A stretch of DNA of 63,024 bases from a virus (IMGVR_UViG_3300045120_000291:1-63024); one strand, 5' to 3'. Counted from the first letter of the stretch, positions 39,054 through 46,695 are shown. The notes: generated by a model not told the origin, from the letters alone. Numbers and translations are program-made.

Positions 39054-41051
39054 CTAGTTGTACGCGATATCCTGTAACATCTTCTCTGCTTCTTTGATAT
39101 ACCATTGATAGTCAATATCCAGCGGCAGCGTATCAGGCAAATCCATTAGCGGTTTCGCTCCATCTGAACGAGGAACTTTGTTGCCTGACGACGCATATAC
39201 CATCTCACCTTCGGCTTTTTCGGCATAGTACCAGCGGATTGACTTACCGAGGTAAATTCCATCTTTTACTGCACCGCCCTTTACAGTTCGTACACTAACA
39301 AACTTACGAATATCATTGCAAGTGCTGATGGTCGTTGCCAATGGGACTTTTTGGACGAGGAACTTCTCAATCGCTTCGACGCAGATGGTGTTGGTGGGAT
39401 TCTTGTGCAGCCACATTGACCGATCGCTATCGTCGTTCCAGGGATTCGCGTAGGCCCCCTTCGTCTTAGTTTTACCGTCAGTTTTGACAGCAATGTAGTT
39501 ATTGACGTCTTTGCTGTAGAGAGCAGAGTATTGGACGCATTCCATATCGAAGCGTGTGTCGATTTCCCATTGCTTGATGATTGCTTCCATACGCAACTTC
39601 AATCGCTTGTGGCATTTGATTACAATGCCGTCCGTGTTTGCGCTGACCACATGGATGTCGGCAATCTCTAGTCGCTCAATCAACAGAAGCAACGAAAGCT
39701 GGCCGGTAATGGTGACCTGGATCAGCAAGTCTGGCGCATACAGGTTCGACCATTTAGAACCGAGCTTGCCGAACGAACCGTTCAGCACAATCTTGAATCC
39801 GTTGGCAAAGACCTTGCGACCTGCTTTCTTGGCTGCAACACGCGCATCGAATGCGATGCGGTACACGCGCAGGAAATTCGGTCCCATGTGATAGGGATAC
39901 AGGCCTTGGTTCAGAATGATCTTAGGATAGAACGAGGTTACGTCATAGTCCCATAGCTCGTATTCGTCATCCGCCACATGCGAGACACACTTCTCACAAC
40001 TATGCAGTCCGCCAATTCCCATCTGGTATTCGCGACCAGCGATGCCTAATTTTAGGTCTGCAATCTCTGGGGGCATCTCAATTGAGCCATGATCTGCAAC
40101 GATAAACGCTGCATTCTTAATGACATTGAATGCGTACTGAAGTGTATCCGAACTGTACTGCAGAAACGCGGGGGCCCGGTAGCGGTACAGGGTGCCAGGC
40201 ATTATAAGCGGGCGGGCGACTCGCTTCCCATTCAGTGCAGCGACTTCATTCGTGAAGACAGTTTCTGCAATCTGAGCATCTGATTTAGAACGTAGGTCGA
40301 CGCCATACTGCTGGCTGAGGGTCTCTCGAAGCTTAATTTGCTCATCGAGCCCGTTATACAAGTCCCGGGTGGCTTTTAAGTCACTGTTGACGTTATACCA
40401 GCGAGTGATCGCAATCTGTTGAGCAGAGAGCTTTTTACCGGGTAGGAATGGGAGATCCTGCATTCGTCGTGAATGTAGGCGACCAGCATAGATTTTCAAC
40501 GAAGCTCGAAGCGGAGCGATCTCGATCAAGTCAATGTGGTCAACCTTTAACGGCTTCACTTTGTAACCCTTCAACACGTCGCGAGGGTTTTCACCGCGAA
40601 CGATTATTGCATGCGCAGCATCTTCAAGAAGGTGAAGAGGATACCCTGCCAGCGCTAGTGCAGTAATCACAATATCGAAGTTGATGCTATTGAAACCGAC
40701 AATCGTGAATGTCGTTAAGATCCATTCGAGTTTTTTAACATCGAGGGGTAGATCTGGTGTCGCTTCGATATAGACAATCTTGCCTGTATTCAGAGACAAG
40801 AAGGCTGCGAGGAAGTAGTTCGGGTAGACTTCGATATCGAATAGGAATCGGTCTTTCTTTGGATTGATTGCATGTTCGATCAGTTCCTGGTCGGTAAACA
40901 CAGGAATATCGAAGTTAAGTGCTTCTTGCAAGCCTGGCAGATAATCATCTGCAAGCCAGACAGGTGCGGGAGGGGTTCGTTTGACTTTCTGTTTCAGAAC
41001 CTTGACAACTGGTTCGTCTCTCCAGAACATTCCTAGAGCATCACGACGCAT
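39054..41051 (-). CDS. DNA polymerase, family B
   Basis: 665 aa with a 3'-5' exonuclease domain (ExoI DIE at 72-74, ExoII FNSINFD at 120-126, ExoIII-like YNGLD at 232-236) and the polymerase motifs A (DVTSFYPK, 370-377), B (KIVLNGSFG, 420-428) and C (ANTDG, 471-475, with the usual DTD reduced to NTD). It lacks the protein-priming insertions seen in phi29-type enzymes that I can recognise. AAGGA precedes ATG 41051. It replicates the phage genome with the clamp-like protein encoded upstream. Confidence 0.85.
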   Translation of the reverse strand: MRRDALGMFWRDEPVVKVLKQKVKRTPPAPVWLADDYLPGLQEALNFDIPVFTDQELIEHAINPKKDRFLFDIEVYPNYFLAAFLSLNTGKIVYIEATPDLPLDVKKLEWILTTFTIVGFNSINFDIVITALALAGYPLHLLEDAAHAIIVRGENPRDVLKGYKVKPLKVDHIDLIEIAPLRASLKIYAGRLHSRRMQDLPFLPGKKLSAQQIAITRWYNVNSDLKATRDLYNGLDEQIKLRETLSQQYGVDLRSKSDAQIAETVFTNEVAALNGKRVARPLIMPGTLYRYRAPAFLQYSSDTLQYAFNVIKNAAFIVADHGSIEMPPEIADLKLGIAGREYQMGIGGLHSCEKCVSHVADDEYELWDYDVTSFYPKIILNQGLYPYHMGPNFLRVYRIAFDARVAAKKAGRKVFANGFKIVLNGSFGKLGSKWSNLYAPDLLIQVTITGQLSLLLLIERLEIADIHVVSANTDGIVIKCHKRLKLRMEAIIKQWEIDTRFDMECVQYSALYSKDVNNYIAVKTDGKTKTKGAYANPWNDDSDRSMWLHKNPTNTICVEAIEKFLVQKVPLATTISTCNDIRKFVSVRTVKGGAVKDGIYLGKSIRWYYAEKAEGEMVYASSGNKVPRSDGAKPLMDLPDTLPLDIDYQWYIKEAEKMLQDIAYN

Positions 41052-41096: not shown

Positions 41097-42059
41097 TTAC
41101 GGTTCAGTTGAGGGTGGATGCATTCCTATAATTGCGCCGCGCAAGTTTTCACCAAAGAAGAGGCAGGGTTGTCTGTTGAAGTCTGCCGAGGTTGCTGTAC
41201 CTTCAAGGAGTTGCAGCATTTCGATATTGTAGATTGAATTCTGGTGAACCCAGGCTAGTTCGTAGACTGCTCCTTCAGATGAGTCTTGGTGCGTCCGCAA
41301 ACCTTCTTCAGAAATGAAGACGCGGCCGAATTTGTCGCAGAAGGGTCGTAAGTTCTCGAGACCTGCATACAAACCCTCTGGAACTGGTTCCGGGTTAGAT
41401 TCGATGTTCAGAACTCTGCCCAAGTCAGCCCACTTCGTTTCAAATAGCTGACTGCGGATCCATCGACCATCGCTGTAGTGAAAGGTGATCGAATTTTCAC
41501 AGACCTGTGCATGCGTAGGTGGCTCGTTGATGCGCACCATTTCTGCGATCGCTGCTCGAGGTATGTTGACCACACAAGGGAACTCGACGCCAATCCAGTA
41601 TTGCACGAGGCAGACGTTGTTTGTCGCATAGGCGCTCTGATCGCGCAGCAGAACTCCATTCGTCCAGGGGCGCGAGGCATCGTTGCCGATGAATGGTTGC
41701 ACTGCGATGATTGCATCGAGCAGTTTCTGACCATCGAAATTGATTATTTCACCTTCAGGCTGCACATGCGAGTCAGTATCGGATACACACTCAATGAAGG
41801 CTTTGAATGCGCCGCTCTTGATACTCAAACGGCCAGCTGGGGTCATCGATAGCGAAATGGTGTCTGAACAGCGGCTGATCGCTTGCACCATCGGAATCGC
41901 TTTCGGTTTGCAATTGATATCGCAAGTGAGCGGACTAGACATCGCCACCGTGCCGTTGAACGAACGCACAGTTCCATTTTCAATTGCGAAATGAGTGATC
42001 GCTGGTATGAAGTCTTTCTTAGCGACTGCACCTTGGACGAACTTCAGCTCTTTAAGCAT
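41097..42059 (-). CDS. DNA polymerase sliding clamp-like protein
   Basis: ATG 42059 is chosen over an upstream TTG because AAGGAG lies 8 bases before it. The 320-aa protein resembles bacterial beta clamps: IPAITHFAIENGTVRSFNG at the start, SRPWTNGVLLRDQSAYATNN in the middle, and a C-terminal third domain. It would hold the family B polymerase on DNA. Confidence 0.7.
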   Translation of the reverse strand: MLKELKFVQGAVAKKDFIPAITHFAIENGTVRSFNGTVAMSSPLTCDINCKPKAIPMVQAISRCSDTISLSMTPAGRLSIKSGAFKAFIECVSDTDSHVQPEGEIINFDGQKLLDAIIAVQPFIGNDASRPWTNGVLLRDQSAYATNNVCLVQYWIGVEFPCVVNIPRAAIAEMVRINEPPTHAQVCENSITFHYSDGRWIRSQLFETKWADLGRVLNIESNPEPVPEGLYAGLENLRPFCDKFGRVFISEEGLRTHQDSSEGAVYELAWVHQNSIYNIEMLQLLEGTATSADFNRQPCLFFGENLRGAIIGMHPPSTEP

Positions 42060-42252
42060 TTCCTCGACTCCTTGCGCATTCAGCGTTTGCAGCTTCAATG
42101 ATGGGTTGCAGCTTATGGACCCATTCGTATTTGACTTGTAGAACAGTCATTTCTTCCCCAGGAAACTCTTTGTATTGATAGCCTGCCTCATCGAGATGTT
42201 TCTTGAAGATTTCAAGTTTCCATGGGTCGATGCAAACGCCAGCGGTTTTCAT
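42052..42252 (-). CDS. Hypothetical protein, 66 aa
   Basis: The start overlaps the DpdA stop (TGATG) and the end overlaps the clamp start. An alpha/beta protein (VCIDPWKLEIFKKHLDEAG, then VLQVKYEWVHKLQPII). Similar small genes sit by clamps in other phages, but I cannot name a family. Confidence 0.6.
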   Translation of the reverse strand: MKTAGVCIDPWKLEIFKKHLDEAGYQYKEFPGEEMTVLQVKYEWVHKLQPIIEAANAECARSRGNA

Positions 42253-43172
42253 CAGAATAGCTCCTGCAGGCCAACGCGAAAGATCTCGTTCTTGTTGAGA
42301 TTCATCATTGCGTTGATAACTCCGTAAGCCCAGAGGTTATACGCTGCGCGGGATTCGTAAATGGTAGCGAGTCGCTCAAGCGTGAACCCTTGCTTCTCCA
42401 GCATCTGCAGAACGTAGTCCTGCTCGATTGCTGACAGTGTAGTTATATGTTGCCCCGCGTCATGTCGAGAGGGGGACTTCTCAGATATATTGAGCGGCCC
42501 ATGCTCAGGGGACACAATAGAGCCGAAAGCTGCGGTCTGAATCCAAGAAGACGAGTCACATGAATACCACGGATAACGCTCCATGATAGGTATTGCAGTG
42601 ATGCCGAATCCATGGACCTTAACCTTTGCTCGACCTGATCCATCGACAAGGTATCTATCCCACATTCTATCGAGCCAGATGCAGAGCTGCTTTGTAGAAC
42701 TTCCCACCATACCGCCCAAAGTGATGTAAGGGTAATTGGCGACATAATGTTCAAGGTATCGTTCATCCTCGCCTGCATGGAAACACGGTAGAGGCCTAAC
42801 GCCGCGGAGCTCCATCTCGTATTGGTTTCTCCAAGTTTGTAGAGGATCTCCAATTCCGTCCAGAACCGAAGCCATAGCAATGCCATCTTCTTTGCGGATA
42901 ATGTCACTATTGCGCTGGATGTACTCACAATAATCACTCACCTTGAGATCGACGCCAAGTGTGAACGCCGAGAATGCGCCACTGTCCAAAAAGATTGAAG
43001 CATTGTCTGCGCGCATTTCGTCGACGTATTTCTGCTTGCCGACATAATGCCAACTTTCAAGGATGTGTGGAAGGTTCTGGACCAGAGACTTTTCATGGTC
43101 ATTGAGTTTGACGTACCTGTTCTGCCCAGGTTTGTAGTTATTAGAGTAAACGGCAGCAAGAAAGATGTTCAG
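42252..43172 (-). CDS. dpdA: DpdA-like DNA 7-deazaguanine transglycosylase
   Basis: A 306-aa TGT-superfamily enzyme that swaps guanine in DNA for a 7-deazaguanine. From the first ATG (43016) it would lack its first strand; the frame extends upstream in coherent sequence (NIFLAAVYSNNYKPGQ) to a CTG at 43172 that overlaps the previous stop (CTGA) and has GGAAG 7 bases before it. The core motifs are DSGAFSA (63-69), GGMVG (153-157), HGFG (187-190) and SCDSSSW with the likely nucleophile Asp206. No C-terminal zinc site is seen. It ends the deazaguanine cluster. Confidence 0.8.
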   Translation of the reverse strand: MNIFLAAVYSNNYKPGQNRYVKLNDHEKSLVQNLPHILESWHYVGKQKYVDEMRADNASIFLDSGAFSAFTLGVDLKVSDYCEYIQRNSDIIRKEDGIAMASVLDGIGDPLQTWRNQYEMELRGVRPLPCFHAGEDERYLEHYVANYPYITLGGMVGSSTKQLCIWLDRMWDRYLVDGSGRAKVKVHGFGITAIPIMERYPWYSCDSSSWIQTAAFGSIVSPEHGPLNISEKSPSRHDAGQHITTLSAIEQDYVLQMLEKQGFTLERLATIYESRAAYNLWAYGVINAMMNLNKNEIFRVGLQELF

Positions 43173-43417
43173 AGGTGTTCTTCCGTAATCTTGCGGTCAG
43201 GAGTTTTCCGAGAGTTATATTCCCAAACGAGTTCTTTGGCATTAACACGCTTCTCCCAGCCAGGCAAGAAGATTACATGAAACTCGGTCAGACCTTTGAA
43301 GATTTGTGGATTATCGATTACTCGAGTGCGTTGCGGGTCAAGTCCGCGTTTCGCCCAGTTCTCTTTGAGCCACGTGCGCCCGTGCATCCAATCTCGACCT
43401 ACGATTAAAGTCAGCAT
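43169..43417 (-). CDS. Hypothetical protein upstream of dpdA, 82 aa
   Basis: ATG 43417 has GGAGG 8 bases upstream, so the longer TTG frame is rejected. The promoter at 43466-43438 lies directly before it. The protein is alpha/beta with a Trp-rich N terminus (IVGRDWMHGRTWLKENW). It is translationally coupled to dpdA and may assist it, but no family is recognised. Confidence 0.6.
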   Translation of the reverse strand: MLTLIVGRDWMHGRTWLKENWAKRGLDPQRTRVIDNPQIFKGLTEFHVIFLPGWEKRVNAKELVWEYNSRKTPDRKITEEHL

Positions 43418-43437
43418 AAGGCGCACCTCCAAAAGCT

Positions 43438-43466
43438 ATTGTACCATAACCCCCGTTATCGTGCAA
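43438..43466 (-). promoter_or_regulatory. Promoter, TTGCAC-17-TACAAT
   Basis: TTGCAC (43466-43461) and TACAAT (43443-43438) are 17 bp apart, partly inside the end of the GTP cyclohydrolase gene. It allows the small gene and dpdA to be transcribed independently of the preQ0 synthesis genes. Confidence 0.65.
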
Positions 43467-44124
43467 GCTCCATGAACTCAGCGCGAGCAGAAACTTCACT
43501 CAGAAGAACGCCTCGCAACGCACTGGTGATCGTCATATGCCCCTGCTGGCAGATGCCACGTGACTCCATGCACATATGACGCGCCTTAATCATAACGCCG
43601 ACGCCTTTCGGCTTCAAAGTTGTTTCGATACAGTCAGCGATCTGTGCAGTCAGTCGTTCTTGGACTTGAAGGCGCCGAGCAAACGCATCAGCAACCCTAG
43701 AAAGCTTCGAGAGGCCGACAATCTTGCCGTTCGGAATGTACGCGATTGTCGCAGTGCCGAAGATCGGGGCAAGATGATGTTCGCAATGCGAATAGATTGG
43801 GATATCCCGGACCATGACCATCTGGTCATATTTCTCTCCTCCGTCTTCGAATTCTTTCATCAGCGTTGCAGGCTCAATAGCGTAACCTCCGAACCAGTGC
43901 GTGAACGCTTTCGCAACTCTGTTTGGCGTATCTTGCAGCCCTTCGCGTAAATCATGTTCGTTGCCGGGTTCAATTAACCTCAACAACTTGTCGATATGCA
44001 CAGCTTTTGGGCCGTGGAGAGGTGTGAATTTTCTTGGTTCGGCCTGATTTTTGACATATTCGAATCCGTTCCAGACAAGGTCAGGATTGAAAGGGTCTGG
44101 TGCACCGATTTGGGGACTGCCCAT
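43456..44124 (-). CDS. folE: GTP cyclohydrolase I
   Basis: ATG 44124 overlaps the QueD stop (TAATG). The 222-aa protein has the zinc ligands in SHCEHH (Cys114, His117) and the C-terminal HMCMESRG, the core of GTP cyclohydrolase I. It turns GTP into dihydroneopterin triphosphate, the first step toward preQ0. Host FolE would compete for folate, so a phage copy raises flux into modified bases. Confidence 0.9.
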   Translation of the reverse strand: MGSPQIGAPDPFNPDLVWNGFEYVKNQAEPRKFTPLHGPKAVHIDKLLRLIEPGNEHDLREGLQDTPNRVAKAFTHWFGGYAIEPATLMKEFEDGGEKYDQMVMVRDIPIYSHCEHHLAPIFGTATIAYIPNGKIVGLSKLSRVADAFARRLQVQERLTAQIADCIETTLKPKGVGVMIKARHMCMESRGICQQGHMTITSALRGVLLSEVSARAEFMELAR

Positions 44125-44558
44125 TACTCCACCTCGTACGTGGCAGCGCATTTGCGAGTTTCTTCAACTTCGCAATGTTTCAGATAGACACCCGTATTGC
44201 CAAGCAATTCAGGCCCGACTACTTCGACCAGATACATGGCAATGTTTTCTGCCGTCGGGTTGAAGGAAACTATGACCACAGTGGGGTCGAGTAGCTTCAC
44301 GCATTCAGCTAGAGGGTCTTTCTCCCACATGAGCATCTTGTGGTCCCAGTTGTCCTCGAGCCACATGCAGAGCTTTTGTTTGATAACTGAAAAGTCAATT
44401 ACCCGGCCGACGTTGTCGAGTTCTTCATCTGTCTTAAAAGCTGCGCAAGTGAAGAAGATGCGGTAATTGTGCCCGTGAAGGTTGGCGCATTTACCCTCGT
44501 GGCCGTGGACTCGATGTCCACAGCTTATGTCATGGTATCGCTTTGCTGTCCAGCTCAT
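44124..44558 (-). CDS. queD: 6-carboxy-tetrahydropterin synthase (QueD)
   Basis: 144 aa with the zinc histidines His15 (CGHRVHG), His28 and His30 (LHGHNY), catalytic Cys24, and a C-terminal VEET. It converts dihydroneopterin triphosphate to 6-carboxy-tetrahydropterin, the second step. It overlaps the Gat-QueC gene by 29 bases. Confidence 0.9.
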   Translation of the reverse strand: MSWTAKRYHDISCGHRVHGHEGKCANLHGHNYRIFFTCAAFKTDEELDNVGRVIDFSVIKQKLCMWLEDNWDHKMLMWEKDPLAECVKLLDPTVVIVSFNPTAENIAMYLVEVVGPELLGNTGVYLKHCEVEETRKCAATYEVE

Positions 44559-45972
44559 GCTGTTCCTCGTCGAGGTAGGTTATTACTTCAGGAATGTTGT
44601 TGATTCGAAACGCTGTACGCCGCATAAAACAAGGTCCGCAGGTGCCACAGTGCTGGGAGCCTGCGCGGTAGCAGCTCCAAGTCAGATCAAGGGGAGCGCC
44701 AAGCGCCATTCCGTAGGCGACAATCTCGTGTTTCATCATGTTGCCGACCGGCATCATCACATTGATTGACTTTCCATCCGCTACCGCGAAAGGAAGCATG
44801 TCATTAAAGCGGGAGATGAACTCTGGTTCGTTATCGGGATAAGCCCCTGCTTCTTCGAGGTTGTTCCCTAGCACAATCGTTCCGAACCCATTCGCTTCCG
44901 CGTAAGCAGTAGCAACGCTGAGAAGCAACAGATTTCGAGCAGGAACCCATTCGTAAGCGAACTCGGCGCCTGCTTCCCCGCCTGCAACCTTGCTGTCTGA
45001 GTCAAGTAGTGGGGAATCCCCCTTCTTGTAGATGGGCAACGGGAACAGGGTCACTTTGACACCCATGCGTTCTCCGACATCCATTACCGCCTTTATTTCA
45101 GGGTCTTCTGCGCGGCTGCCGTACATGAAATGGATTAACTCGATTGACTCGAATCGTTCCTTTGCTGCCGCAGCAGACACAACACTATCCAATCCGCCGC
45201 TGCAGACGACCAGTGCTTTCGCTGGCGCTAAACGCCGAAGGCGTCGAAGCCTCTTGTGGATTTCTCCGTCTTCGGTGATCGTGAACGACCCGTATGAATA
45301 CGGTGTAATCATCTGCGGATTATCGACGGGAATGTAGTGCCTGGCACTAGCAAAGACAACCATACGATTATCTTGATGATACCAGATTGGTCTGTAGTTG
45401 CAAGCGAAGTAGATTTTATTCGGTTGCGAATCGTGGACCGCGAGGATAGCGAAACTGCCTTTCAATAACTTGACCGCAGTCGAAAAAACTTTCTCAAAGT
45501 CGACTTCGTTATAGGCGCGAAAATTGACTGCCTTTAACGATTCGGATTCAAGTAGTTCCAGGATTGCGGCACTGTCGATATTCGTATCGAGTGCGTGAGT
45601 GCGCAATTCTTTGTCGTTGGCGATGGTGCCGTTATGAACGATGCCCCAGCCGTCTGGACGAAGCCTATACGGTTGCTGATCCTGCTCGCGCTTGTCTTTG
45701 ACGTATTCGGTCGTCGGTTCGGCGCGCAGGTTCGCGATGAAAGACAGGTTGCCACGTCGGCGAGTAAAGAATTCATTGTAGAACTGTAGGGATTTGATAT
45801 TCCCTGGATGCTTTTCAATCTGTCTGTGCGCTTCGGAGGCTGCTTCGTACCCGAACCCGTCCCGCCCTCGCTCCGTGCTGCGTTCGCAAATCGAATACAA
45901 CATCTGATTGAAGTCTTTCACATGCGAATCGTGACGAGCATTCACATAAATAGCGCCAATGATTGCGCACAT
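44530..45972 (-). CDS. Glutamine amidotransferase-QueC fusion (Gat-QueC)
   Basis: 480 aa in two domains. Residues 1-245 are a class II glutamine amidotransferase with Cys2 as nucleophile (MCAIIGAIY), RAEPTTEY (83-90) and NGT (114-116). Residues 250-480 are QueC, with the PP-loop SGGLDS (258-263) and zinc cysteines at about 434, 442, 445 and 448. QueC makes preQ0. In archaea and phage 9g the Gat-QueC fusion is linked to formation of archaeosine (G+), the added domain supplying ammonia to the nitrile. It follows QueE with a GGAG site. Confidence 0.9.
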   Translation of the reverse strand: MCAIIGAIYVNARHDSHVKDFNQMLYSICERSTERGRDGFGYEAASEAHRQIEKHPGNIKSLQFYNEFFTRRRGNLSFIANLRAEPTTEYVKDKREQDQQPYRLRPDGWGIVHNGTIANDKELRTHALDTNIDSAAILELLESESLKAVNFRAYNEVDFEKVFSTAVKLLKGSFAILAVHDSQPNKIYFACNYRPIWYHQDNRMVVFASARHYIPVDNPQMITPYSYGSFTITEDGEIHKRLRRLRRLAPAKALVVCSGGLDSVVSAAAAKERFESIELIHFMYGSRAEDPEIKAVMDVGERMGVKVTLFPLPIYKKGDSPLLDSDSKVAGGEAGAEFAYEWVPARNLLLLSVATAYAEANGFGTIVLGNNLEEAGAYPDNEPEFISRFNDMLPFAVADGKSINVMMPVGNMMKHEIVAYGMALGAPLDLTWSCYRAGSQHCGTCGPCFMRRTAFRINNIPEVITYLDEEQHELDSKAIP

Positions 45973-45975
45973 GGG

Positions 45976-46695
45976 TCACTCCATGTCAATGATTTTGTGG
46001 ACCTGTAATTGCAGGATATACCCATGCTTCAAGCACGAGAGGATGACCGCTTCCCGGTTTGCGAGGTTCTTTACCGGATCCTTGTGGTCAGTAGGTTGCA
46101 AGTAGACCGGAATCATTTCATTCTCTGGTCTTGCGACTCGCCCGTTGGAAGGATGTTCAAGCGGCCAGATGGGTAGACCGTCATCCTTGTCTAGGTTGCC
46201 AGCGCTGCCAACATATTTGTAGCAACAGGCGCACTCATGAATCATTGTGCGAACCTTGCCCGCTTTTGGACTACAGACGATATAGACGCCTTTCCGCTCG
46301 TCGGTCGCGCAACTGTATTCGATATCTTCAGGCGGGTTGAAAGTGCCGTTCGTCTCGATCTGCACGAAATAGCCTATCTCGACTAACATGCGCAAAAGAG
46401 GGCCTAGCGCTTGCCTGAAAGGTTCTCCCCCAGTGATAACCACAAGGGTTGTCTTCGTGTTCTGGATTAGGCGGTTTGCTTCCTGGCAGATCTGCGCAGG
46501 GGATAGCGCGACTCGCTTCGATGTGTAGTCGGTGTCGCAGAGGGGACATTGCAAGTTGCATCCTGCAAGTCGAATGAAGATTGCGGGCGTCCCGCAGAAA
46601 GGGCCTTCGCCCTGGATTGTGTGAAAGATTGAATGGACGTCAAGTAACCGACCATTTGATACAACGCGCTTCTCTGGCGGTTGCAGATTGAGCAT
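45976..46695 (-). CDS. queE: 7-carboxy-7-deazaguanine synthase (QueE)
   Basis: 239 aa radical-SAM enzyme with CNLQCPLC (Cys46, Cys50, Cys53) for the Fe-S cluster and TGGEP for SAM. FHTIQGEGPFCG at the N terminus is typical of QueE. A second group of cysteines (CACC near residue 155) is not part of the core. It makes carboxy-deazaguanine for QueC and heads the cluster after two hairpins. Confidence 0.9.
   Translation of the reverse strand: MLNLQPPEKRVVSNGRLLDVHSIFHTIQGEGPFCGTPAIFIRLAGCNLQCPLCDTDYTSKRVALSPAQICQEANRLIQNTKTTLVVITGGEPFRQALGPLLRMLVEIGYFVQIETNGTFNPPEDIEYSCATDERKGVYIVCSPKAGKVRTMIHECACCYKYVGSAGNLDKDDGLPIWPLEHPSNGRVARPENEMIPVYLQPTDHKDPVKNLANREAVILSCLKHGYILQLQVHKIIDME

Follow-up and report, generated by a model that had tools for sequence, protein, structure and literature searches.

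Archaeosine in phage DNA is a known defence against restriction enzymes. Among the systems closest to the one described here are those of Enterobacteria phage 9g (Nonagvirus, Queuovirinae) and Pantoea phage Vid5, for both of which the identity of the modified base is established, as is protection for 9g; here they are compared with a cluster of 7-deazaguanine DNA modification genes in IMGVR_UViG_3300045120_000291 (positions 1-63024, a complete IMG/VR viral record, 63,024 bases long, hereafter the window). In 9g DNA, 2'-deoxyarchaeosine (dG+) was measured at 25–27% of G (PMC5567051). Co-expression of 9g gat-queC and dpdA in E. coli converted 9–18% of plasmid Gs to dG+, while 9g dpdA alone gave small amounts of modification, mainly dPreQ0, the deoxynucleoside of 7-cyano-7-deazaguanine (preQ0) (PMC6884629). 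Vid5, which also encodes Gat-QueC, carries dG+ at 7.55% of its Gs by liquid chromatography–mass spectrometry (PMC8306585), and the DNA of Escherichia phage CAjan (Seuratvirus), whose QueC is without a Gat domain, holds dPreQ0.

The window encodes the same five enzymes as 9g, in the same order beside the replicative clamp and DNA polymerase B (PolB): queE, gat-queC, queD, folE and dpdA are closely spaced on the minus strand at 42252–46695. All five proteins named in a preliminary description of this DNA were recovered on one strand, in order and with family matches, and the cluster is very probably a complete phage-encoded dG+ pathway of the 9g type. Identity to 9g is 52% for Gat-QueC and 74% for DpdA. 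9g differs by an extra open reading frame (ORF) that separates queE from gat-queC and by the ATG start of its dpdA; its dG+ chemistry is proven, whereas that of the window is predicted. The closest characterised relatives, Pseudomonas phages NP1 and PaMx25 (Nipunavirus), MiCath and Xanthomonas phage DoCa3, share the gene order and are 50–58% (Gat-QueC) and 74–78% (DpdA) identical to the window. Vid5 has the same enzymes but encodes in addition a preQ0/preQ1 transporter, whereas no such transporter (Vut_1) was found in the 63-kb record. CAjan shares the operon frame and the DpdA family, and differs from the window in its QueC.

The Gat-QueC protein (44530..45972, minus strand) joins a class II glutamine amidotransferase domain to a 7-cyano-7-deazaguanine synthase domain. 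It matches phrog_10428 over its full length (1.8e-194), with Pfam matches to GATase_6/7 and QueC (3.9e-54), and its AlphaFold model matches the AsnB/GlmS and QueC folds. The Gat domain (residues ~1–235, 45268..45972) gave profile matches to GlmS (1xff/4amv), in which H113, N114 and G115 aligned with the GlmS Asn-Gly and D133 with the GlmS Asp, while the QueC domain (residues 252–457, 44602..45219) aligned with B. subtilis QueC (3bl5), C-terminal cysteines included. Across a 13-member alignment, C2, R83, N114-G115, D133, the SGGLDS motif and C434/C442/C445/C448 were invariant. The intact Cys2 claimed earlier was borne out, since the N-terminus reads 'MCAII' with Cys directly after the initiator Met, and an N-terminal MC was present in all 17 further Gat-QueC genes read. 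A match spanning at least 80% of the window's Gat-QueC was found in 64 phage records, so the cluster is less special than first rated.

The three enzymes expected to supply the precursor likewise appear intact. QueE, a radical S-adenosylmethionine 7-carboxy-7-deazaguanine synthase (45976..46695, minus strand; phrog_2076, 1.5e-55; NCBIfam QueE models), has an intact CX3CX2C motif ('CNLQCPLC'). QueD, a 6-carboxytetrahydropterin synthase (44124..44558, minus strand; Pfam PTPS, 1.2e-24; phrog_2389, 2.2e-47), and FolE, a GTP cyclohydrolase I whose conserved portion begins at residue 53 (43456..44151, minus strand; Pfam, 2.5e-66; TIGR00063 above cut-off), keep their metal and catalytic motifs on direct reading, including the C..LHGH, DH and E motifs of QueD. 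In the proposed pathway, FolE, QueD and QueE would convert GTP to 7-carboxy-7-deazaguanine, from which the QueC domain would form the nitrile preQ0 using ATP. The Gat domain would cleave glutamine at Cys2, and the released ammonia would convert the nitrile to the G+ formamidine, either as the free base or in DNA. In a reaction like that of tRNA-guanine transglycosylase (TGT), DpdA would replace guanine in DNA with the 7-deazaguanine base.

DpdA (306 aa; 42252..43172, minus strand) matches phrog_887 at 5.5e-82 and far more weakly phrog_7068, a second phage TGT-like family (9.2e-16). A sequence search against solved structures gave no match and the fold search alone succeeded: for the predicted model (predicted local distance difference test score 71), archaeosine TGT 1j2b was the sole PDB match below E 0.001 (probability 1.00, E 1.1e-4), followed by bacterial TGT 3gc4 (probability 0.97). 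The protein is 65–80% identical to its relatives, with D63, D105 and D206 invariant, and D63 and D206 are likely the TGT-type catalytic aspartates. The PADLOC model for bacterial DpdA matched at only E=0.0054, and no further proteins of a bacterial Dpd genomic island were detected among the ten proteins scanned with PADLOC. The DpdA-like transglycosylase of the preliminary description is present by its phrog_887 match, with one amendment: its ATG-started ORF at 42252–43016 is without the N-terminus. Homology extends 52 codons beyond the ATG at 43016, up to a CTG at 43172. The equivalent codon is a standard start in 27 of 30 relatives (25 ATG, one TTG and one GTG). The exceptions are two divergent loci and 9g, whose dpdA begins an additional nine codons upstream.

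The CTG might be read as a loss mutation in a decayed or poorly expressed cluster that modifies little or no DNA, given that it replaces ATG and that the next in-frame ATG would delete 52 residues holding many invariant positions. We regard this as highly improbable. A Shine-Dalgarno-like GGAAG (43180..43184, minus strand) lies 7 nt ahead of the CTG, the upstream ORF terminates in CTGA, the 306-codon frame is unbroken and 74–80% identical to the nearest relatives, and the window carries the site-avoidance footprint described below; an error in sequencing or assembly is another possible source of the CTG. That upstream ORF (87 aa; 43169..43432, minus strand) lies between folE and dpdA and is probably 82 aa long from an ATG at 43417, with a strong Shine-Dalgarno sequence (GGAGG) ahead of it; the ORF's stop codon, TGA, shares bases with the dpdA CTG at 43170–43172. 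It has no relative among phages or in IMG/VR, and no Pfam family. In NP1 this slot holds a homing endonuclease instead, and in CAjan a small ORF, both likewise overlapping the dpdA start. A frameshift or fusion of the 87-aa ORF into dpdA was rejected: followed upstream, the dpdA frame is closed by a TGA at ~43199, no slippery sequence is present at the CTGA, and the majority of relatives begin their dpdA at this codon. We take the CTG to be either a natural start that translational coupling assists or an error of sequencing; in both cases DpdA is intact.

As 9g and Vid5 contain dG+, and since no QueF, ArcS core (DUF5591) or Vut_1 was found in the record, dG+ is the base to be expected in the DNA of this phage. 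The absence of QueF noted earlier held over the whole 63 kb, where the sole match was FolE, below cut-off. The earlier prediction of dG+ is supported by gene content, intact active sites and the biochemistry of 9g and Vid5, and also by an independent k-mer footprint. To obtain this footprint, observed over expected counts of 6-bp palindromes containing GA or GGC were compared with those of other palindromes under Markov orders 2–4; GA and GGC are the motifs at which CAjan DpdA is reported to act, as cited in PMC8306585.

In the window, 6-bp palindromes with GA were found 311 times versus 339 expected (0.92) and those with GGC 110 times versus 100 (1.09), while the remaining palindromes were avoided (349 versus 547 expected, 0.64); permutation gave p = 0.003 when GA was taken by itself and 1e-4 when GA or GGC was counted. 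Palindromes with G then T that contain neither GA nor GGC fell to 0.26, and AACGTT (0 of 15 expected), ACATGT (0 of 10) and GGTACC (1 of 8) were strongly avoided. The pattern was stable across Markov orders 2–4 and in each half of the window. Because the motif was chosen after the list of depleted palindromes had been seen, replication in other genomes matters. These data suggest that the modification chiefly targets Gs that precede an A, and GGC. About 27% of the Gs in the window lie in GA; DpdA may thus target up to 27–34% of Gs, and the modified sites would resist host restriction, so that GA and GGC palindromes are kept while others are lost.

Across genomes, the contrast for GA was positive in 16 of 17 Gat-QueC genomes (mean 0.37), compared with means of 0.05 in 13 QueC-only genomes and -0.15 in 12 unmodified phages (lambda, T1, D3, F116, HK97, LUZ24, N15, D3112, phiKMV, PB1, N4 and T7), none of which exceeded 0.12. 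Gat-QueC genomes exceeded controls at p=9.6e-6 and QueC-only genomes at p=5.5e-4 in tests that ignore shared ancestry; once close relatives had been thinned out, leaving 12 genomes, the values were p=6e-5 and 0.011, likewise uncorrected for ancestry. In the pooled Gat-QueC genomes, the 27 most avoided palindromes were all free of GA and GGC. The footprint could instead reflect the restriction systems of the hosts or base composition rather than DpdA, an explanation that we consider unlikely while giving it some weight: restriction pressure varies between hosts, the AT-only palindromes TTATAA, TAATTA and TATATA are likewise kept in the pooled Gat-QueC genomes, and two QueC-only genomes, MMDA13 and a partial contig (G010), show the footprint without Gat-QueC. 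Against it, non-palindromic words with GA/TC showed no effect relative to others (1.002 versus 1.005), GA ranked first of ten dinucleotides, the 12 unmodified phages have no such footprint, and the signal recurs among phages of Escherichia, Pantoea, Pseudomonas and Klebsiella.

The same comparison bears on whether the final base might be dPreQ0, with Gat serving only as the ammonia source for QueC and preQ0 being the base that DpdA inserts. The QueC reaction itself requires ammonia, 9g DpdA on its own inserts preQ0 (PMC6884629), and some QueC-only relatives share this DpdA, among them CAjan with its dPreQ0. Yet dG+ was found in both 9g and Vid5, which share the Gat-QueC fusion, dPreQ0 in CAjan does not stop EcoRI, and GA sparing is absent in CAjan (-0.02) and Seurat (-0.11) but present in the window (0.26), making dPreQ0 an improbable final base here; a mixture of bases may also occur. 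A broader reading, which we hold to be somewhat better than even, is that the spectrum of restriction sites is a fossil of the modification: Gat-QueC (dG+) phages including the window have spared GA and GGC palindromes and purged others, and phages that pair this DpdA with dPreQ0 have for the most part not done so, because dPreQ0 protects poorly.

Published digestion data agree with dG+ at GA and GGC in several respects. EcoRI, BamHI, EcoRV and BglII, all with GA sites, fail on 9g DNA, whereas RsaI (GTAC) cuts it completely and BsrGI, NdeI and MfeI partly (PMC5567051); MluI and PciI also cut it in part (PMC6884629). EcoRI fully cuts the dPreQ0-containing DNA of CAjan, which fits the missing footprint in that phage. 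Of the Gs in 9g, 26.3% lie in GA, versus the measured dG+ content of 25–27% (PMC5567051). Other observations weigh against this interpretation. HindIII (AAGCTT, without GA or GGC) was reported inactive on 9g DNA, and the 2017 digestion survey described no sequence pattern among resistant sites (PMC5567051). The dG+ content of Vid5 (7.55% of Gs; PMC8306585) is far under its GA content of 22%. Within the window, GATC (0.80) and GANTC (0.77) are mildly avoided though they contain GA, and expression of DpdA from a CTG start might be weak. The Gat-QueC genome AL-2 has no footprint (-0.07), while the QueC-only contig G010 (locus L024) has one of 0.39 but no known G+ enzyme.

G010 was found to have neither Gat nor DUF5591, and no clear QueF, making it a candidate for a new type of G+ synthase, or else an exception to the footprint idea. 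MMDA13 (0.32) is a phage for which its authors had predicted archaeosine via QueF-L (PMC7472734), and a third QueC-only genome, G011 (0.23), encodes an ArcS-like DUF5591 protein. The ArcS core was rejected as an explanation of QueC-only footprints, being present in G011 and absent in G010, and the QueF matches in these genomes, at or near cut-off, seem to be FolE. Loss of the QueC zinc cysteines does not sort the outliers either. The QueC proteins of L022, L024, L026, L029 and MMDA13 (L156–L158) are without the C-terminal zinc-binding cysteines, with HTSYDGKYPPTD... or similar instead, whereas those of CAjan, Seurat and VpKK5 keep them. Two QueC-only clusters contain additional genes between queC and queD: a class III aminotransferase and a two-part ArcS-like DUF5591 protein in one (L023:2089-4067), a possible route to another 7-deazaguanine, and a DUF5591 protein in the other (L026:3760-4476), whose genome has a moderate GA footprint.

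On a DpdA tree, a single QueC-only clade was rejected (AU (approximately unbiased) test p=0.003), with long branches as a caveat. Subject to that caveat, QueC and Gat-QueC have replaced one another in the queC slot on more than one occasion relative to dpdA. The parsimony count of seven changes was not used, as few branches were well supported.

The surroundings of the cluster identify the virus as a tailed phage. Downstream of dpdA on the minus strand follow a small ORF (66 aa; 42052..42252) that overlaps the dpdA end and whose slot is occupied by a 75-aa ORF in CAjan, the replicative clamp (41097..42098; phrog_947, 4.5e-70), near dpdA as in relatives, and PolB (39054..41051), found by tblastn to the PolB loci of relatives and next in the conserved order. 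Further on, the minus strand encodes helicases, a Cas4-type exonuclease, a single-stranded DNA-binding protein, Sak4, a ligase, a thymidylate synthase and a primase (by PHROGs), while terminase, portal, scaffold and capsid genes lie on the plus strand. Terminal repeats were looked for in the 63,024-base contig and none were found. Searches with tblastn group the record with the Queuovirinae-like phages NP1, PaMx25, MiCath, DoCa3, 9g and Vid5, and its replication/modification region, with replication genes assigned by PHROGs, is syntenic with those of 9g, NP1 and CAjan. Similarity to these phages at the DNA level is recognisable in dpdA only (72%); the DpdA of the closest IMG/VR relative is 80% identical.

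The cluster itself is a known type of system, and the novelty lies in the CTG with which dpdA starts and in the motif-specific avoidance of sites; a limited search found no earlier description of such a footprint in the literature, although one may be published. For this phage, we infer the final base, its motif and its protective role from the sequence and by analogy with 9g and Vid5. The cluster extends the set of known dG+ phages by one environmental lineage, and the footprint offers sequence-only evidence for an active, protective modification in an uncultured phage. It proposes GA (and GGC) as the target of 9g-type DpdA in phages with dG+, where no motif had emerged from the 2017 digestion survey, with predicted upper values of ~70,500 (GA only) to 87,800 (GA and GGC) dG+ per million nucleotides. 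If the site spectrum is indeed such a fossil, sequence alone would allow prediction of the motif that is targeted and, to some extent, of the final base.

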